Source: a virus
Length of the DNA: 26,940 nucleotides
Virus record (IMG/VR): IMGVR_UViG_3300021963_000554
Span: 1-26,940 of that record
Reading direction: 5' to 3' (one strand)
Shown: one piece after another, positions 2-16,781 of the stretch
How positions within the stretch are numbered: the first letter of the stretch is position 1
Layout: every line of letters begins with the position of its first letter
The notes under the pieces: generated by a model
Seen by the model: only the letters and a program-made list of their open reading frames with translations
Databases searched by the model: none
Told to the model about the DNA's origin: nothing
Translations under genes and position numbers: made by a program

Positions 2-124
2 AAGTTTGAATTCGAACAAGAAGTAGATTCAAACGAACAAGATCTTGATTTTAACGAATCAACAAAGAAAGAAGTTGAAAATCAACTTCTGGAACAATGG
101 AAAAATTATAAAACCCAAGGATAA
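2..124 (+). CDS. 3' end of an unidentified gene (partial)
   Basis: The open frame enters from the left edge and ends at TAA 122-124, giving the last 40 residues of a protein whose start is outside the window. The tail is strongly charged, with many Glu, Gln, Asn and Lys (for example DLDFNESTKKEVENQ), and looks like a helical, hydrophilic C-terminus. No domain can be named. It ends 4 bases before the next ATG, and its final codons (CAAGGA) double as that gene's ribosome binding site, so the two are probably co-transcribed. Confidence 0.6.
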   Translation, partial: KFEFEQEVDSNEQDLDFNESTKKEVENQLLEQWKNYKTQG

Positions 125-128
125 TATC

Positions 129-971
129 ATGGATTTCAAAGCACTAGTATCTAAAATTGCAAGTTTCGAGACACCTGCTAAAAAAGCAGCTACGATAACT
201 GAAGCCGCAAAGCCAAAGATTCAGCTATCAGAAGATGCTGAAATCCGTGTACTTGCTGGCGTGTCGACTATTTTATCAGAATCTAAAAAAGCAAAACCAG
301 ACTTTTTAGATGTTGACAAAGACGGCGACAAAAAAGAGCCAATGAAGAAAGCTGCTAAGGCAGTTAAAGAAGAAATGAAAGTTGGTGATACAAAGAAAAC
401 TGCCAAGGGCGGCACTGTTACTAAAACTAAAACAGGTATCACACATAAAGCAGGTCCTGGCAACTACGGTGGATCTAGCGATAAAGACACAGATTTAGAT
501 GCCGATGACGACAAGTCAAAAGACAAAAAGAAAAATGTTAAAGAAGCTGCCAACGCTAAACAGCAGGCTGCTATAGCTATGGCTAAGAAAAAGAAAGAAA
601 AGAAAATGGAAGAAGGTGCTAAGCCAGACTTCCTTGACATGGACAAAGATGGTGACAAGAAAGAGCCAATGAAAAAAGCCGTTGCTGACAAAAAGAAAGG
701 TGCTGCTCCTAAGAAAGGTGTAAATCCTTTTGCTAAGAAAAAAGCTGTTAAAGAAAGCGAAGACAAATTAACATTCAAACGTTGTTTGAAAATTGTAGTT
801 GAAAGTCAAGGTTCAATGCAGATTGATCCAGTAGACAAAACATTGTGGACATGGGCTAACAGAGTTGGTGCTAGTAAATTTACTGAATCTGTCAAGGCAC
901 AAGCATTTGCCGCTGCTACTTACGAAAAAATGGGCGGAGAATGGGATCTTCGCAAAACTTTATCAGAGTAA
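129..971 (+). CDS. Lys-rich phage protein with two EF-hand-like DxDxDG repeats
   Basis: A 280-residue protein of unknown function. The ATG at 129 is preferred over an in-frame ATG at 45 because AGGA lies 7 bases upstream and position 45 falls inside the preceding gene. Residues 1-50 are helical. Residues 56-75 and 165-184 are near-identical copies of KPDFLDVDKDGDKKEPMKKA, whose DxDxDGxxxE core matches EF-hand/Excalibur-type calcium loops. Between them is a low-complexity Lys/Asp/Ala stretch with another acidic run (about 120-131). Residues 229-279 form a different, Trp-containing globular C-terminus. Its place beside the endolysin and an incomplete upstream gene suggests a virion or prohead component. 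This is inference; proteins with this repeat are recalled from marine T4-like phages. Confidence 0.8.
   Translation: MDFKALVSKIASFETPAKKAATITEAAKPKIQLSEDAEIRVLAGVSTILSESKKAKPDFLDVDKDGDKKEPMKKAAKAVKEEMKVGDTKKTAKGGTVTKTKTGITHKAGPGNYGGSSDKDTDLDADDDKSKDKKKNVKEAANAKQQAAIAMAKKKKEKKMEEGAKPDFLDMDKDGDKKEPMKKAVADKKKGAAPKKGVNPFAKKKAVKESEDKLTFKRCLKIVVESQGSMQIDPVDKTLWTWANRVGASKFTESVKAQAFAAATYEKMGGEWDLRKTLSE
294..353 (+). repeat. Calcium-loop repeat, copy 1
   Basis: Encodes residues 56-75 of the Lys-rich protein (KPDFLDVDKDGDKKEPMKKA). It matches copy 2 at 19 of 20 residues, the only difference being V62 against M. The DNA of the copies differs at several third codon positions, so the protein sequence seems to be what is conserved. 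Confidence 0.85.
621..680 (+). repeat. Calcium-loop repeat, copy 2
   Basis: Encodes residues 165-184 (KPDFLDMDKDGDKKEPMKKA). Spacing of D170, D172, D174, G175 and E179 fits an EF-type metal-binding loop, but no flanking EF helices can be asserted from sequence alone. Confidence 0.85.
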
Positions 972-981
972 AGGGTAACCA

Positions 982-1599
982 ATGATTCTTTTAGAACAAA
1001 TTCAAGAAGCCTTTCCCGAGGCAAAAAAACAAAGAGTAGCAGATTTATACGAAGGCTTTGTAGAAACATTTGAATTGTTTGACATTATGACACCAGCAAG
1101 ACAAGCAGCATTTCTTGCTCAGTGTGCTCATGAAAGTGGTAATTTTAATTTCATGGTTGAAAATCTTAACTATGGAGCTAAAGGTCTTAGAGGTACATTT
1201 CCAAAGTACTTTCCAACAGATGCTTTAGCAGCCGAGTACGAACGTAAACCAGAAAAGATTGCCAATAGAGTGTATGCTAATAGAATGGGCAATGGCGACG
1301 AAGCAAGCGGTGACGGATTTCGTTATCGTGGTCGCGGCTTAATCCAAGTTACAGGTAAAAATAATTACACAGCTTGCGGCGAAGCATTAGGAGCAGATTT
1401 GTTAGAAGAACCAGAATTACTTGAAACTTCCCCGGGAGCAGTACTATCAGCCGGGTGGTTCTGGGCTGCTAACAAACTTAATCAATTTGCTGACTCAGGT
1501 GATATTCTAACAATGACCAAACGCATTAACGGCGGAACTATCGGTCTAGAAGATCGTATCAAACATTACAATCACGCACTTCATATTTTGGTAGATTAA
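982..1599 (+). CDS. Endolysin, glycoside hydrolase family 19 type
   Basis: A 205-residue lytic enzyme expected to cleave the beta-1,4 glycan chains of peptidoglycan for host lysis (GH19 chitinase/lysozyme fold). The GH19 hallmark AQCAHESGNF holds the probable catalytic Glu51. The second acidic residue is probably Glu107 in NGDEASGDGFRYRGRGLIQ, a segment typical of phage GH19 endolysins. Length is normal for a single-domain GH19 endolysin, with no separate cell-wall-binding domain. There is no signal peptide, so export would need a holin or other route; the three-helix membrane protein starting at 1913 is a possible but unproven candidate. AAAGGG lies just before the ATG. The family is clear; the exact bond is inferred. 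Confidence 0.93.
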   Translation: MILLEQIQEAFPEAKKQRVADLYEGFVETFELFDIMTPARQAAFLAQCAHESGNFNFMVENLNYGAKGLRGTFPKYFPTDALAAEYERKPEKIANRVYANRMGNGDEASGDGFRYRGRGLIQVTGKNNYTACGEALGADLLEEPELLETSPGAVLSAGWFWAANKLNQFADSGDILTMTKRINGGTIGLEDRIKHYNHALHILVD

Positions 1600-1602
1600 T
1601 TC

Positions 1603-1632
1603 TTGCTCTAAGGGGCCGTAGTCATATATAAT
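1603..1632 (+). promoter_or_regulatory. Sigma70-like promoter for dsbA
   Basis: TTGCTC (1603-1608), an 18-base spacer and a perfect TATAAT (1627-1632) lie in the 56-base gap after the endolysin. The -35 also resembles a T4 MotA box, although spacing to the -10 is longer than usual. TATAATAA is also two bases off the T4 late element TATAAATA. Transcription would begin near 1639. Confidence 0.5.
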
Positions 1633-1657
1633 AACTATTAACAAGGAGTTATTATAT
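1626..1657 (+). promoter_or_regulatory. Perfect 11-bp hairpin covering the dsbA ribosome binding site and start
   Basis: ATATAATAACT (1626-1636) pairs perfectly with AGTTATTATAT (1647-1657) around a 10-base loop. The Shine-Dalgarno AAGGAG (1643-1648) sits in the loop and first stem bases, and the first two bases of the ATG are in the stem. The left arm contains the promoter -10, so RNA started there would lack that arm and could not fold the hairpin. Confidence 0.65.
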
Positions 1658-1916
1658 GACAAAAATGTACGGTCCTGAAGAGAAAGCAAAACTTGAACGC
1701 CTTATCAACGAAGGCTCAACTGTACTACGCGAAGTTGAAGATCTACAAGAAGGTCTTAAAGAAACAGTCAAAGCAGTAGCCGAAGAACTGCAAATCAAAC
1801 CCAGTATTATCAACAAAGCAATTAAAATCGCACACAAAGACAATTGGAAAGATCACGAAGCAGAGTGGAACGAAATTGAAATGATCTTAGGTGTAACAAA
1901 GCATTTGCCTGAATGA
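1656..1916 (+). CDS. dsbA: DsbA-like double-stranded DNA-binding protein
   Basis: An 86-residue, highly charged, mostly helical protein. The N-terminal half (EEKAKLERLINEGSTVLREV) reads as a helical or coiled-coil segment; the centre (VAEELQIKPSIINKAIKIAH) looks like a helix-turn-helix DNA-binding unit; the C-terminus is helical. Length and pattern match T4 DsbA, about 89 residues, which binds double-stranded DNA near late promoters. The assignment rests on remembered resemblance. The start is fixed by AAGGAG six bases upstream. It overlaps the next gene by ATGA. Expression may be controlled by the hairpin over its start. Confidence 0.75.
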   Translation: MTKMYGPEEKAKLERLINEGSTVLREVEDLQEGLKETVKAVAEELQIKPSIINKAIKIAHKDNWKDHEAEWNEIEMILGVTKHLPE

Positions 1917-2203
1917 TTGAATTTTTTCAAAATTCTTATAAGTGGGCAAAACAAGATTATCGAGCATGGCCGCTGAGATTTATTCTAGAAATCACTGCTT
2001 GGTTCATGAGCATTTGTTGTACCATATGGATGGGTGCTACTTTGCCCAATCCTCCATTTTTAATACTGTATCCTTTGTTTATTATTCAATGCTCAATTTT
2101 TGGCTGGGCAGCTTGGACAAGGCGTAGTACAGGAATGGTAGCAAATTATCTTTTAATTGTCACTATAGACATAGTAGCATTGATACGTTTAATAAATATC
2201 TAA
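1913..2203 (+). CDS. Small membrane protein with three predicted helices
   Basis: A 96-residue protein with hydrophobic segments at about 22-44, 48-68 and 76-95, expected in the inner membrane. The N-terminus (about 20 residues) is polar with aromatic residues, and basic residues (RR 70-71) lie between helices 2 and 3. The start overlaps the dsbA stop (ATGA), so translation is probably coupled. No family is recognised. Closeness to the endolysin makes a lysis role (holin-like) thinkable, but dsbA lies between them and no holin motif is visible. Confidence 0.75.
   Translation: MIEFFQNSYKWAKQDYRAWPLRFILEITAWFMSICCTIWMGATLPNPPFLILYPLFIIQCSIFGWAAWTRRSTGMVANYLLIVTIDIVALIRLINI
2191..2198 (+). promoter_or_regulatory. 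Possible late promoter element AATAAATA
   Basis: AATAAATA is one base off the T4 late element TATAAATA and fits the looser NATAAATA used by marine T4-like phages. It lies at the end of the membrane protein gene, 76 bases before the polymerase start. The motif is short and the DNA AT-rich, so a chance match is possible. Confidence 0.25.
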
Positions 2204-2273: not shown

Positions 2274-4943
2274 ATGAGTTACGTAGATGCTTTCTACGAC
2301 AGAGACAATGATCTTATCTCTGTTGTTGAACGAGACAAAGAAGGTCGCAGACATTTCAAAGAATATCCTGCCAAATATCTGTTTTATTATCCAGATTCCA
2401 AAGGCAAGTATGTCAGCACACACGGCACACCACTGAGTCGTGTTACTTGTAAAAACCTAAAAGAATTTCACAAAGAACAAAAAATACACGGAAGTCAGAA
2501 ACTATACGAGTCTGACATCAATCCAATATTCCGCTGTTTAGAAGATAACTATCTCAACGTAGATGCTCCAAAACTAAATGTAGCATGGTTCGATATTGAG
2601 GTAGACTTTGATCCAGAGCGTGGGTATGCTAGTCCCGATGATGCGTTCATGCCCATAACTGCTATTGCTGTACACTTACAATGGTTGAATACTCTTGTGT
2701 GTTTAGCTGTTCCGCCAAAGTCTATGACTATAGAAGAAGCAGAAAAGTTAGTTGCTGGAATTCCAAATACATATTTGTTTGACAACGAAGCAGATATGTT
2801 AGACAATTTCCTAACACTGATTGAAGATGCTGATGTATTATCAGGTTGGAACTCAGAAGGCTTCGATATTCCTTACACAGTTAATCGTGTAACCAAAGCA
2901 TTAAGCAAAGAAGACACTCGCAGATTTTGTTTGTGGAATCAATTTCCCAAAAAACGTGAATACGAAAAATATGGAAAAGCCGCTGTTACTTATGATCTTA
3001 TTGGTCGTGTTCATTTGGACAGTCTCGAGTTGTACCGCAAATATACCTATGAAGAACGACACACCTATCGACTGGACGCAATTGGAGAGATGGAGATAGG
3101 CGAGAATAAAACTGTCTACGAAGGCACACTTGATCAACTATACAATAATGACTTCCGCAGATTTATTGAATACAACAGACAAGACTGTGCTTTACTTGAT
3201 AAACTAGACAATAAATTAAAATTCTTAGACTTAGCTAATAAAATTGCTCACGAAAACACAGTGTTGCTTCAAACTGCTATGGGTGCTGTAGCTGTAACTG
3301 AACAAGCTATTATCAACGAAGCTCATAGACGCGGTATGATTGTGCCAAATCGAGTTCGTCGAGAACCTGGAAGTGAGCCAGCCGCAGGTGCTTATGTTGC
3401 GTATCCTAAAAAAGGTATTCACGAATGGATTGGGTCAGTCGACTTGAACTCACTGTACCCGTCGGCGATTCGTGCGTTGAATATGGGGCCAGAGACTATT
3501 GTTGGTCAACTACGTCCAGACTATACTAAAAATTACATTGACGAACAAATGGTACGTCACGGCAAATCATTTGCTGCTGCTTGGGAAGGGTTGTTTGGTT
3601 CTTTAGAATACGAATTAGTTATGGAACGTAACGTTGCTAAAGAAATCACCATTGACTGGGAAGAAGGCGGCAAAGATGTTCTTACTGGCGCACAAATAAG
3701 CGATTTGATTTTTGATTCTGGACAACCGTGGATGCTTAGTGCTAACGGTACTATCTTTACCTACGAAAAAGATGGCATTATTCCAGGACTGTTAAAACGT
3801 TGGTATGCTGAACGTAAAGAGATGCAGGCCAAACTAAAAGAATGTATTGCCAGTGGCAATAAGATTGAAGAAGAATACTGGGACAAACGACAATTGGTTA
3901 AAAAGATTAACTTGAACAGTTTGTATGGTGCCATTCTTAACCCTGGCTGTCGTTTCTTTGATAACCGCATTGGGCAATCAACAACATTAACTGGCAGAAC
4001 CATTGTTAAACATATGGCTGCTAAGATTAACGAAATCATTACAGCTGAATATGACTACAAAGGTCGTGCTGTGATATACGGCGATACCGATTCATGTTAT
4101 TTTACAGCTTATCCAATCCTAAAGAAAGAAATTGAAAGTGGTAAATTGCCCTGGACCAAAGAAACTGTAGTACAACTTTATGATCAGATTGCCGATGAAG
4201 TAAATCAGAGTTTTCCTAAAATGATGACTGATAAATTCCATTGTCCTAAGACTCGTGGTGAAGTTATCAAAGCTGGACGAGAAATTGTTGCTATCAAAGG
4301 TCTGTTTATTACTAAGAAACGTTATGCGGTTCTTTACTACGATAAAGAAGGAAAGCGTAAAGATGTAAACGGCAAGCCTGGTGAAATCAAAGCTATGGGT
4401 CTAGATCTCAAACGTTCAGACACTCCTGTAGTAATTCAAAACTTTTTAAGTGAAGTTCTTGAAAAAGTTCTTACAGGACACACTAAAGAACAGGTCCTTG
4501 AACACATTACAAACTTTAGAACAGAGTTTAAAACTCGGCCTGGCTGGGAAAAAGGCAGTCCCAAACGTGCCAACAACATCACAGAATATGCTGCTAAGGA
4601 AAAGAAAGCAGGTAAAACTAACATGCCCGGACACGTTCGTGCTAGTTTGAACTGGAACACTTTGAAGCGTATGATGGATGACAAATACTCTATGAATATT
4701 GTTGACGGAATGAAAGTAATTGTTTGTAAAGTCAAAGACAATCCAATGGGGTATACCAGTGTTGCGTATCCTGTAGACGAACTTCGCTTACCACAATGGT
4801 TTAAAGACATGCCGTTTAATGACGGCGAAATGGAAACCACTGTTATTGACGAAAAACTAGAAAACCTTATTGGTGTTCTAGAGTGGGATATTAGTCAAAC
4901 AAGAAGCGACAACACTTTTAACAAATTATTTGATTTTGAATGA
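2274..4943 (+). CDS. 43: DNA polymerase, family B (T4 gp43 type)
   Basis: The replicative polymerase with proofreading, 889 residues against 898 in T4. The exonuclease half has Exo I WFDIEV (D107, E109), Exo II GWNSEGFDIPY (N193, D198) and Exo III YNRQD (Y300, D304). The polymerase half has motif A DLNSLYPS (390-397, D390), motif B KINLNSLYG (544-552) and motif C YGDTDS (602-607, D604 and D606). All catalytic residues are present and the gene is intact, without intein or split. AAGGAG precedes the ATG. It should work with the clamp encoded just downstream. The hairpin before the start may allow autoregulation. DNA around motif A (about 3430-3495) is richer in G+C than the rest of the gene. 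Confidence 0.98.
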   Translation: MSYVDAFYDRDNDLISVVERDKEGRRHFKEYPAKYLFYYPDSKGKYVSTHGTPLSRVTCKNLKEFHKEQKIHGSQKLYESDINPIFRCLEDNYLNVDAPKLNVAWFDIEVDFDPERGYASPDDAFMPITAIAVHLQWLNTLVCLAVPPKSMTIEEAEKLVAGIPNTYLFDNEADMLDNFLTLIEDADVLSGWNSEGFDIPYTVNRVTKALSKEDTRRFCLWNQFPKKREYEKYGKAAVTYDLIGRVHLDSLELYRKYTYEERHTYRLDAIGEMEIGENKTVYEGTLDQLYNNDFRRFIEYNRQDCALLDKLDNKLKFLDLANKIAHENTVLLQTAMGAVAVTEQAIINEAHRRGMIVPNRVRREPGSEPAAGAYVAYPKKGIHEWIGSVDLNSLYPSAIRALNMGPETIVGQLRPDYTKNYIDEQMVRHGKSFAAAWEGLFGSLEYELVMERNVAKEITIDWEEGGKDVLTGAQISDLIFDSGQPWMLSANGTIFTYEKDGIIPGLLKRWYAERKEMQAKLKECIASGNKIEEEYWDKRQLVKKINLNSLYGAILNPGCRFFDNRIGQSTTLTGRTIVKHMAAKINEIITAEYDYKGRAVIYGDTDSCYFTAYPILKKEIESGKLPWTKETVVQLYDQIADEVNQSFPKMMTDKFHCPKTRGEVIKAGREIVAIKGLFITKKRYAVLYYDKEGKRKDVNGKPGEIKAMGLDLKRSDTPVVIQNFLSEVLEKVLTGHTKEQVLEHITNFRTEFKTRPGWEKGSPKRANNITEYAAKEKKAGKTNMPGHVRASLNWNTLKRMMDDKYSMNIVDGMKVIVCKVKDNPMGYTSVAYPVDELRLPQWFKDMPFNDGEMETTVIDEKLENLIGVLEWDISQTRSDNTFNKLFDFE

Positions 4944-7618: not shown

Positions 7619-7820
7619 AAATAGAATTAAAGTTTTAGAAGAAACACATCGTCTACTAGATGCTGAAATTGCCAAACTTGAAAAGAATGGCAATTTCAAA
7701 GATGAATATTTGTCCGAATTGAAGAAAAAGAAGTTGCTTTATAAAGACGAAATTGCTAAACTTAATAGACTTCAATGGGAACATGATCACGAAAGCATCG
7801 ACTATGACGAAGAAAGATAA
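7611..7820 (+). CDS. YdcH/DUF465-like coiled-coil protein
   Basis: A 69-residue, fully helical protein. The start at 7611 is chosen because AGGAGG lies 7 bases upstream; a longer in-frame ATG at 7560 has no such site. The pattern of two helices, LEETHRLLDAEIAKLEK and LKKKKLLYKDEIAKLNR, separated by a short loop, closely follows the YdcH family of small bacterial proteins, whose function is poorly known. It overlaps the end of dpdA by 8 bases and the next gene by 17, so it is probably made from the same message. Family resemblance is by eye. Confidence 0.75.
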   Translation: MYENRIKVLEETHRLLDAEIAKLEKNGNFKDEYLSELKKKKLLYKDEIAKLNRLQWEHDHESIDYDEER

Positions 7821-9952: not shown

Positions 9953-11025
9953 GTAAAATATTTCTAGTTGATCTAGAAGCTGTTGAAACAAGGTATACAG
10001 GTCAGTGGAAAACCCACTTGCCTGCCTTGTTACTAAAGAAAGGACACAATGTTCAAATTATCTCTGGCCCTGAGGATATTCCTTCAGCCACTACTCCTGG
10101 TGCTTTTCTTAATTTTGGTGGCACCAATATATACAAGTCTAGTCAAGTTGAGCAGATGGGCCGTTTATTTTGTAACGGAGCCGTTCATCCCGGCGATCAC
10201 TTTATTTTTACTGATGCTTGGCACCCGGGTATCATAAATTTAAAGTACATGAGTGAACTGTTAGGAATTCCTGTAGTCACTCACGGTCTATGGCATGCTG
10301 GCAGTTATGATCCTCAAGACTTTTTAGGTCGGCTTGTTGGTGATAAGCCTTGGGTTAGACACGCAGAGAAATCTTTCTTTGCTGCGTTTGATCATAATTA
10401 CTTTGCTACTAAGTTTCACATTGACATGTTCTGTGATGAACTTTTATGGGAAACTTTAGAAGATACTATACGTGATTTTAAAGACGAAGGTAAAATTGTA
10501 AAGAGTGGTTGGCCTATGGAATATATGCCCAATACTCTTATGATGTATAAGAACATGCCCAAACGTGATCTTATTTTATTTCCACATCGTATTGCTCCTG
10601 AAAAACAACTTCCTATTTTCGAAGATCTTAAAAAACATCTTCCACAATACGAATTTAAAGTATGTCAGGAATATCCGTTAACTAAGAACGAATATCATAA
10701 TATGCTAGGCGAAGCTAAACTTGTATTCAGTGCTAATCTACAAGAAACTTTAGGTATTAGTTGGTATGAAGGTGCGTTGGTAGATGCTATTCCAATGGTT
10801 CCAGATAGACTAAGCTACAGTGAAATGGCTATAGACACATTTAAGTACCCTTCAGAATGGACTGAAAGTTTTGATTTATACGAAGTTCATAGAAAAAAAG
10901 TATGCCATAAAATTATCCAATACATGGAAAATTATGAAAAGTTTTTACCTAGCCTAAATAAACAGGTAGAACTGCTAACTAAAAACTTTTTTAGTTGCGA
11001 TCAACTATTAAAGATGTTAAAATAA
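9949..11025 (+). CDS. GT-B glycosyltransferase (GT4-like)
   Basis: A 358-residue enzyme with the two-domain GT-B layout. The N-terminal domain starts with a Rossmann strand (KIFLVDLE) and contains GGTN and THGLWHAGS. The C-terminal domain has FPHRIAPEKQLPIFEDL (211-227) and the EX7E signature ETLGISWYE (E266, E274) that contacts the sugar nucleotide in GT4-type enzymes, followed by GALVDAIPMVPDRLSY. It should move a sugar from a nucleotide donor to an unknown acceptor. DNA modification, as by T4 glucosyltransferases, and glycan decoration are both possible. Being in the run with QueD-like and FolE genes makes a sugar on a modified base worth considering, but nothing shows it. ATGA overlap upstream. 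Confidence 0.82.
   Translation: MSKIFLVDLEAVETRYTGQWKTHLPALLLKKGHNVQIISGPEDIPSATTPGAFLNFGGTNIYKSSQVEQMGRLFCNGAVHPGDHFIFTDAWHPGIINLKYMSELLGIPVVTHGLWHAGSYDPQDFLGRLVGDKPWVRHAEKSFFAAFDHNYFATKFHIDMFCDELLWETLEDTIRDFKDEGKIVKSGWPMEYMPNTLMMYKNMPKRDLILFPHRIAPEKQLPIFEDLKKHLPQYEFKVCQEYPLTKNEYHNMLGEAKLVFSANLQETLGISWYEGALVDAIPMVPDRLSYSEMAIDTFKYPSEWTESFDLYEVHRKKVCHKIIQYMENYEKFLPSLNKQVELLTKNFFSCDQLLKMLK
10995..11023 (+). promoter_or_regulatory. Sigma70-like promoter for folE
   Basis: TTGCGA (10995-11000), a 17-base spacer and TAAAAT (11018-11023) overlap the last codons of the glycosyltransferase gene. A start near 11030 gives a leader of about 37 bases that holds a small inverted repeat, ATGAC (11033-11037) and GTCAT (11044-11048), before the Shine-Dalgarno CGGAGAA. 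Confidence 0.45.
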
Positions 11026-11066: not shown

Positions 11067-11891
11067 TTGACAGAAAAATTTACACCTGACCCTATCTTAA
11101 ATGAGAAAGTCGATAAAGAATTTAAAAAAGACGAATATCACCCATTAGGCAAAGAAGTATATGTTAAAGCCGGAGACATGATGTCTGACAAAGGCTATAA
11201 AGAAGCATACTTTGCCGATGTCATCCGATTTAAAATGAAACGTGATAAAAAACGTTTCTGGGCGGGCGACAACATCAGCGACTATGTCACTGAAGAAGAT
11301 AAAGCAAAACTTATTGACGAAGCAACTGAAGCATTTGAACTAGTGCTTGATCGTTTGCTAATCGATCGTGAGAATGATCCTAACAGTCAAGGCACAGCTC
11401 GTCGTCTTGCTAAAATGTACTTTAACGAAATAATGGCAGGAAGATATGAACCAGCACCCAACGCAACAGCATTTCCAAATGACTCGCAGGACCGTTACGA
11501 AGGTATGCTGGTTGTTCGTAGCGAGCTTCGCAGTATGTGTAGCCATCATCACCAACCCGTTACTGGCGTTGCTTATATTGGTCTTATTGCTGCCGAAAAA
11601 CTCATCGGCCTCTCAAAATACACACGCATCGCTCAATGGTGTGCCCGACGTGGAACTCTCCAGGAGGAACTTTGTAATGACATTGCTAGGGAAATCCAAA
11701 AAGCCACAGGCGCAAAAGACCTAGGCGTTTATATTCAAGCAGTACACGGTTGTTGTGAAAACCGTGGTATTATGGCACACTCTAGTCTCACACAGACCAC
11801 TGTGCTAAAAGGCGCATTTAAAGAAGATGGAAATACAAAGAAAGAATTCTTTGACAACATTAAATTACAACAGGAGTTTGCCCCAAGATGA
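11067..11891 (+). CDS. folE: GTP cyclohydrolase I (FolE)
   Basis: A 274-residue enzyme converting GTP to 7,8-dihydroneopterin triphosphate, the first step of folate and of 7-deazaguanine synthesis. Zinc ligands are C158 and H161 in RSMCSHHHQPVTG and C229 in VHGCCENRG, matching the CEHH and HxC sites of E. coli FolE; H160 pairs with the catalytic His. AYIGLIAAEKLIGLSK and IAQWCARRGTLQEEL are typical family blocks. A helical N-terminal extension of about 75 residues precedes the core, so it is longer than the bacterial enzyme (about 220). Translation starts at TTG 11067 with CGGAGAA 7 bases upstream. With QueE and DpdA nearby, supply for modified DNA bases is the likely role. Codons around the first zinc site (about 11520-11720) are unusually C-rich. 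Confidence 0.95.
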   Translation: MTEKFTPDPILNEKVDKEFKKDEYHPLGKEVYVKAGDMMSDKGYKEAYFADVIRFKMKRDKKRFWAGDNISDYVTEEDKAKLIDEATEAFELVLDRLLIDRENDPNSQGTARRLAKMYFNEIMAGRYEPAPNATAFPNDSQDRYEGMLVVRSELRSMCSHHHQPVTGVAYIGLIAAEKLIGLSKYTRIAQWCARRGTLQEELCNDIAREIQKATGAKDLGVYIQAVHGCCENRGIMAHSSLTQTTVLKGAFKEDGNTKKEFFDNIKLQQEFAPR

Positions 11892-15929: not shown

Positions 15930-16781
15930 ATGAGCAAAATTAAAATCGCAGAGCTGTTTTACAGTATTCAAGGTGAAGGACGCTATATGGGTGTGCCTTC
16001 TGTTTTCTTACGTACATTTGGCTGTAACTTTAAATGTGCTGGGTTTGGCATGCCTAGGGGAGAATTAAGTGAAGAAGCTAACAACATTAACCCAGAGCTT
16101 TATAAGCAGTATGGAGACTTACCCCTGGTATCTACAGGTTGTGATTCATATGCTAGTTGGGATCCTCGCTTTAAGCATCTTAGTCCCGTACTATCTACTG
16201 ATGCGATTGCCGATGCTATTGTGGATACGCTACCTTACAAGGAATGGCGGGACGAACATCTCGTGATTACAGGTGGTGAGCCATTGTTGGGTTGGCAACG
16301 TGCTTATCCAGACTTATTGCGTCATCCTAAAATGAAAGGATTGAAAGAGATCACTTTCGAAACAAACGGTACTCAACCACTAAGTCCAGAGTTTGAAGAA
16401 TTTTTGGCCATTGAATGGTTAATGCCACAAATTGATTTTACTCGTGAAATTACTTTTAGTGTCAGTGCTAAACTTCCTTGTAGTGGAGAAAAGTGGGAAG
16501 AAGCTATCCTTCCAGATGTAGTTTGTAGTTATGAAGAAGTAGGTACAGCATATCTTAAGTTTGTTATCGCTACAGAGCAAGACTTTGCCGATGCTGAATG
16601 TGCTATTGCCGCATATCGTAAGGCAGGGTTTACAGGTCATGTGTATCTAATGCCAGTGGGTGGCGTAGAAAGTGTATACGCACTAAACAATCGCACAGTG
16701 GCAGACTTGGCAATGAAAAACGGATTACGATATAGTGATCGTTTACAAGTGCCGTTATTTAAAAATGAATGGGGAACTTAA
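15930..16781 (+). CDS. queE: 7-carboxy-7-deazaguanine synthase (QueE), radical SAM
   Basis: A 283-residue radical SAM enzyme that turns 6-carboxytetrahydropterin into 7-carboxy-7-deazaguanine. The QueE start YSIQGEGRYMGVPSVFLRTFG (split here as motif YSIQGEG, 11-17) is clear. Cluster ligands are C32 and C36 (GCNFKC) and probably C71 (TGCDSYASWD), so the third Cys is 34 residues further on than in a CX3CX2C enzyme. ITGGEP (113-118) and FETNGTQ follow. Length exceeds typical QueE (about 220) because of the insert and a longer C-terminus. No good Shine-Dalgarno is seen; a leaderless message is possible. It should act with FolE and the QueD-like protein. Confidence 0.92.
   Translation: MSKIKIAELFYSIQGEGRYMGVPSVFLRTFGCNFKCAGFGMPRGELSEEANNINPELYKQYGDLPLVSTGCDSYASWDPRFKHLSPVLSTDAIADAIVDTLPYKEWRDEHLVITGGEPLLGWQRAYPDLLRHPKMKGLKEITFETNGTQPLSPEFEEFLAIEWLMPQIDFTREITFSVSAKLPCSGEKWEEAILPDVVCSYEEVGTAYLKFVIATEQDFADAECAIAAYRKAGFTGHVYLMPVGGVESVYALNNRTVADLAMKNGLRYSDRLQVPLFKNEWGT

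Follow-up and report, generated by a model that had tools for sequence, protein, structure and literature searches.

A hairpin holding a predicted promoter probably insulates phage dsbA from read-through expression

The dsbA locus and the structure around its start

The DNA analyzed here (the window) is one strand of a viral sequence, positions 1 to 26,940 of IMG/VR record IMGVR_UViG_3300021963_000554. Its upstream unit begins with g308 (45..971, plus strand, like the neighboring genes and the leader elements of dsbA), which was placed by tblastn synteny and has no Pfam family. A relative of g308 was found by tblastn upstream of dsbA in loci with sufficient upstream sequence. Next comes a GH19-type endolysin gene (982..1599; PF00182, phrog_181), the proposed source of read-through RNA, which lies directly before dsbA only in the clade of the window. 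The dsbA gene itself (1656..1916, 86 aa) encodes a Phage_DsbA protein that belongs to PF11126 with 29.5 bits against a curated cut-off of 25, and it also falls in phrog_639 (transcriptional regulator). The following gene, o96 (1913..2203, assigned by synteny), starts within the last 4 nt of dsbA (ATGA) and is possibly translationally coupled to it, so a drop in dsbA translation may lower that of o96 as well. A family B DNA polymerase gene (polB, 2274..4943; PF00136, phrog_262) runs in the same direction as the dsbA operon.

Several other features of these loci were recorded. A late-type motif, AATAAATA, lies at 2191-2198, shortly before o96 ends and some 76 nt upstream of where the DNA polymerase gene starts, and polB may have a late promoter as well. 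In three relatives (L020, L026, and L028), about 2.2 kb of extra DNA, absent from other relatives, separates dsbA from o96. Farther along the window, GTP cyclohydrolase-like and QueE-like genes (11067-11891 and 15930-16781; phrog_2197 and phrog_2076) suggest a 7-deazaguanine pathway, and strong inverted repeats occur at 7664-7698 and 10937-10990 (88% complementary, with arms of 16 and 17 nt). Rfam and tRNA searches of the window gave no matches.

An earlier reading of the sequence alone had described a perfect 11-bp hairpin around the Shine-Dalgarno (SD) sequence and start of dsbA, with TATAAT in its left arm. This inverted repeat is exact: the left arm ATATAATAACT (1626-1636) and the right arm AGTTATTATAT (1647-1657) are separated by a 10-nt loop, and TATAAT is present at 1627-1632. 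The right arm holds the end of the SD sequence AAGGAG (1643-1648), whose AAGG is in the loop and whose AG is paired, as well as the start codon, with the dsbA ATG (1656-1658) lying within the hairpin stem. What that reading overlooked is that the element is larger. In the read-through structure, an outer left arm (1602-1620), identified by folding and co-variation, pairs with an outer right arm (1668-1686) that folding places inside dsbA, at codons 5-11. The 11-bp hairpin is therefore the core of a stem spanning approximately 1602-1686.

All conclusions about RNA are based on folding computed at 37 C without ribosomes. By this measure, the 11-bp hairpin alone in 81 nt is only mildly unusual for DNA this rich in A and T (z = -1.8; 9 of 200 shuffles equally good), whereas the whole 111-nt element (1590-1700) folds with -30.3 kcal/mol and z = -4.5, which none of 200 shuffles equaled. 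RNA from 1639 onward is unstructured (z = -0.2). The cost of opening the ribosome binding site (RBS) is 12.5 kcal/mol in the read-through RNA versus 5.0 in the promoter RNA. The folding energies of the two transcripts support the proposal that read-through RNA would hide the dsbA start and promoter RNA would not. Among 41 gene starts in the window, dsbA ranks first both by fold z-score (-6.1; next -3.2) and by RBS opening cost. In G001, the 364-kb contig of a relative (L083), dsbA ranks 2 of 437 by folding energy and 12 of 437 by RBS cost, and many of the starts ranked higher by cost look like mis-called starts. A separate candidate, the stem GCTC-UAAG-GGGC (1605-1616) as a terminator remnant, was rejected because it has no T-run and its bases pair better with dsbA codons.

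The left arms also carry the elements of a predicted promoter. Pattern scans placed a -35-like block, TTGCTC, at 1603-1608, where it is also part of the outer left arm; three of its six bases match the -35 consensus, and it lies 18 nt from TATAAT. The TATAAT -10 box is inside the left arm, is part of an invariant block, GTCATATATAATA (1621-1633), and occupies the same place in relatives of the terminator type described below. Motif spacing predicts a transcription start at 1639, the seventh base after TATAAT, giving a 17-nt leader. A consensus promoter scan of the window does not list this site, and the promoter call therefore rests on comparison. Motif position and folding fit a predicted promoter whose RNA drops the 5' strand, with a weak -35.

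Conservation among relatives and two kinds of leader

Protein-based and pattern scans of IMG/VR yielded 212 loci with a dsbA relative, representing 92 distinct leaders. The endolysin gene lies directly before dsbA in five of these leaders, which fall into four lineages: the window with L001 and L002; L083/L188; L084-L089; and L216/L262. Three pattern scans of IMG/VR for this endolysin type returned only the same 11 contigs, i.e., the same four lineages, the later two of them adding no leader of the type. All four lineages share the invariant blocks TTGCTCT and GTCATATATAATA on either side of a variable spacer, a pattern expected of a promoter given that the blocks lie at promoter spacing. The distance from TTGCTC to TATAAT is 17 nt in L216 and 18 nt in the other lineages.

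The inner hairpin is also kept in all four lineages and measures 11 bp in the window; L083 has 12 bp, as a base inserted on each side forms a G-U pair, L084 has 10 bp, and the stem of L216 is bulged. The start codon or adjoining bases are paired in every lineage, and read-through RNA folds with z-scores of -4.5 (window), -6.0 (L083), -5.7 (L084), and -1.8 (L216). Pairing was compared by arm swaps that need no alignment and by a mutation null; column-wise pair counting on the MAFFT alignment A1 was set aside, because the leaders vary in SD-ATG spacing and gaps are misplaced in it. In the outer stem, CTTCAGGGCC/GGTCCTGAAG of L083 versus CTTCGGGGC/GGTCCCGAAG of L084 amounts to an A-U to G-C double change. 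Swapping the arms of these two lineages reduces the outer duplexes from -23.6 and -23.3 kcal/mol to -19.1 and -21.0, a loss of 2-5 kcal/mol in the outer helix. For the mutation null, the same number of left-arm changes was placed randomly outside the two blocks in 1,000 variants. When the target was the window, L083, or L084, only 0-71 of 1,000 variants folded as well as the native sequence. The expectation that paired bases would be conserved in related phages thus holds for these three lineages, in which both arms co-vary, but fails for L216 (728-880 of 1,000 variants as good as native), where the outer arm is changed or lost and the inner stem alone is left.

No terminator was found between the endolysin gene and dsbA in any of the four lineages, the window included, which agrees with the idea that endolysin RNA could read through into dsbA. 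Most other leaders are organized differently. In 77 of the 92, an intrinsic terminator (e.g., GCCAGTCA..TTGACTGGCTTTTTTT) directly precedes dsbA and the endolysin gene is absent. In these terminator-type leaders, the 3' arm of the terminator doubles as the -35 element (TTGACT or TTGACC), and wherever the -35 is of the TTGAC type (82 leaders), exactly 17 nt separate it from the -10 box. This terminator-promoter fusion, approximately 70 to 20 nt before dsbA, was seen in L003, L007, L011, and most other dsbA loci. In L005, L006, L010, and L012, the module is followed by an inserted reading frame and lies 493-500 nt upstream. Even in L285 and L321, whose DsbA is only ~46% identical, a different terminator, GCGTTGACAAAACGCTTTTTTT, also holds the -35. 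In 121Q, a Salmonella relative, and Vibrio phage 2.275.O, a terminator lies between tail-fibre-region genes and dsbA. A literature search on terminator-promoter overlaps gave nothing relevant. The window lacks a GC stem with a T-run that holds the -35 in its 3' arm.

The fusion of the sister phages matches the window in downstream gene order and in where the -10 box lies relative to dsbA, but it acts at transcription, and the RBS hairpin is usually weak there. Median RBS opening cost is 12.5 kcal/mol in the five endolysin-type leaders versus 5.6 in the 77 terminator-type leaders, and 4.4 in 39 terminator-type leaders from an unselected first scan. A rank test of endolysin-type against terminator-type costs gives p = 5e-5 with relatedness ignored; there are only four endolysin lineages in one clade, and therefore the comparison is not phylogenetically independent. 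The scan that yielded L162-L200 required TATAAT and then TTATATG, a pattern that favors hairpin-like leaders; their enrichment among the controls counts against the contrast. Two terminator-type leaders, L200 and L187, have strong RBS hairpins too, and a small dyad around the -10 box, GACTATATAATAGTC, occurs in many terminator-type relatives.

Similar pairing was found at the dsbA leaders of two cultured jumbo phages, MIJ3 (L324 5925-5980; z = -3.4) and, more weakly, Phosso (L323 5925-5980; z = -1.5), in which the dsbA SD is paired with the promoter spacer or the -10 box. The Pseudomonas phages PA5oct and MIJ3 resemble the window in having dsbA before polB, a TTGACT-17-TATAAT promoter, and an SD sequence (CGGAG) paired with promoter-spacer bases. 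They differ in that the left arm is the spacer and not the -10 box, the sequence is unrelated, and the upstream gene is no endolysin. The dsbA leaders of Atu_ph07 and SCTP-2 have no significant hairpin; the gene upstream in SCTP-2 is divergent, and therefore no read-through is expected.

Promoter classes and the likely order of expression

The sequence TTGACN-N(15-17)-TATAAT occurs 37 times in G001, versus 2 times for the reversed pattern, and many of these sites lie at both contig ends, which are dense in short genes. The T4 late form NATAAATA occurs 42 times upstream of genes in G001, compared to 11 on the reverse strand there and 1 in the coding control. Each of the five large relatives tested has a gene for a gp55-like late sigma factor. 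Each of 10 loci examined has at least one NATAAATA site (mostly two) 1.0-2.4 kb upstream of dsbA, and the four endolysin lineages have two such motifs each, 1.9-2.4 kb upstream. A terminator after the late motifs was detected in five of six non-endolysin loci; in the sixth, L065, a GCCGGC..TTGACCGGC stem with a T-run can be seen, though the crude terminator search missed it. Given the late motifs upstream and the lack of a terminator, late RNA in the endolysin lineages would be expected to continue through g308 and the endolysin gene into dsbA.

The late motif NATAAATA is absent from the hairpin, and there is no ATAAATA between 1600 and 1660, the nearest in the window being at 2192. The T4 late promoter (TATAAATA) is thus not found as the inner promoter. 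From the motif classes, we infer that the promoter of dsbA belongs to the early class, with a weak -35 in the clade of the window. A MotA profile search gave no match and is uninformative because the control was also silent.

By position and motifs, dsbA heads the polB operon, the late promoters precede the endolysin gene, and the inner promoter is of the sigma70/early type. The timing is therefore probably inverted relative to T4 gene e, with late read-through RNA silenced and an early-type promoter inside the fold. The sequence-only reading had likened the logic to that of gene e, with timing possibly set by promoter choice, and the timing parallel is not supported in that form, since in every T4 case the hairpin belongs to a late gene present on early transcripts and has a late promoter inside. 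As a separate observation, the original gene e arrangement may be seen elsewhere in G001: the RBS of a heme oxygenase gene (PF01126; L356, near base 1500; G001 287670-288227, minus strand) pairs with a left arm that contains the late motif AATAAATA, although the arrangement is less clear in a 73%-identical relative (L357).

A proposed translational insulator and its alternatives

We consider it probable that the 1602-1686 element shields dsbA from read-through expression by blocking translation. Late RNA of g308 and the endolysin gene, entering from upstream, would carry both arms and would fold into the long stem; the start codon of dsbA would then be paired, and DsbA would not be made. RNA begun near 1639 at the sigma70-type promoter would lack the left arm and would be translated. 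The outer left arm starts only a few bases past the endolysin stop (1599), and a ribosome terminating at that stop might overlie some of the arm, whereas the inner stem (from 1621) should be out of its reach. The analysis shows the sequence and its computed fold, their conservation, the classes of motif, and the order of genes; promoter firing near 1639, late read-through, and the block to translation are the steps we infer. Since the endolysin leaders lack a terminator and most others have one, it looks as if the dsbA-polB operon can be insulated against T4-type late read-through by either the hairpin or the terminator. The promoter-fused terminator would hold this boundary in most relatives, and the hairpin would take its place in the endolysin clade.

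Other explanations of the fold seem less probable. The original gene e scheme, in which a late or middle promoter lies inside the hairpin and early read-through RNA is silenced to delay DsbA until late, has an exact anatomical parallel according to two reviews (PMC3014915, PMC2988022), and PMC2988020 connects DsbA of T4 with late promoters. The TTGCTC block is in addition a poor -35. It also loosely resembles a T4 MotA box. We nevertheless regard this scheme as unlikely, because the late motif of the group is missing from the hairpin and lies upstream of the endolysin gene, and because the TTGACT/C-17-TATAAT promoter of dsbA in relatives is of the class clustered at the gene-dense ends of G001. 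More doubtful still is processing of the long stem by RNase III, with a cut that separates the endolysin and dsbA messages and destroys the dsbA start. The stem has ~25-30 pairs, which makes it a plausible RNase III substrate, and it forms only in read-through RNA, but it contains bulges and internal loops, and processing would not need the start codon or adjoining bases to be paired in every lineage. RNase III cutting may also be combined with translational insulation.

The inverted repeat could instead be a DNA operator at the -10 box, for example for self-repression by DsbA, with the RNA fold as a by-product. Binding of T4 DsbA to A/T-rich sites at late promoters, described in PMC2988020, would suit such an operator, as would the small -10 dyad of many terminator-type relatives. 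However, the conserved pairing extends from the -35 to dsbA codon 11, far from the center of an operator dyad, and it includes G-U pairs, which suit RNA over a DNA palindrome, leaving this explanation quite improbable. We give slightly less credence yet to a functionless residue of template switching off the dsbA start. The left arm does resemble a shortened inverted copy of that start, and the outer part is gone in L216, but the shuffled sequences never folded as well, and the left-arm changes in three lineages preserve the fold far better than random changes do.

Translational insulation by the hairpin has precedents in known systems. In T4, the genes e, soc, 49, and I-TevI have an RBS hairpin with a late promoter inside, according to PMC3014915 and PMC2988022, and the latter describes all such genes as late genes carried on early and middle transcripts. 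The wider T4 gene e type (e, soc, 49, I-TevI/II/III, segB, and Aeh1 mobE) shares with the window a hairpin that sequesters the RBS, an SD and/or AUG paired (here by folding) only in longer transcripts, and phages with a T4-type late sigma factor. In that type, a promoter in or beside the 5' strand gives RNA without the left strand, as the predicted promoter of the window would. It differs in that its inner promoter is late and serves a late gene, whereas here a sigma70-type promoter serves a gene heading the polB operon. In the window, unlike the T4 type, the stem also reaches some ten codons into the coding sequence. Another precedent is the fold-back RNA that protects transposase genes of IS10 and IS200 from outside transcription, reportedly described by Davis (1985) and Beuzon (1999). 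Both studies are cited in PMC2965389, which names a 5' terminator as the other known insulator of insertion sequences. The purpose is the same, in that outside RNA folds over the start and RNA from the gene's own promoter is open, which in the window is seen by folding only. Unlike IS10 and IS200, dsbA is at a conserved place before polB with no transposase or mobile element, and the sequence is unrelated. The window element works like both of these systems and fully matches the definition of neither.

A broader proposal seems to us evenly balanced: that jumbo phages with T4-type late transcription guard dsbA-polB by one of two insulators that make use of the same promoter, either a terminator that holds the -35 or a hairpin that uses the -10 or spacer, that the hairpin inverts the gene e logic, and that the two forms interchange in evolution. 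The T4-style leaders of the RBS-hairpin type serve late genes, according to the reviews (PMC3014915, PMC2988022). If our reading is true, a hairpin with an early-type promoter would here silence late RNA, and would do so at the boundary where sister phages have a promoter-fused terminator as guard. Insulation from read-through would then itself be under selection and could switch between transcription and translation. PA5oct-like phages would offer a laboratory system for this hairpin logic. The role of DsbA in T4 is described as unresolved in PMC2988020, and the arrangement would provide a context for it, in that these phages may need DsbA kept off late RNA.
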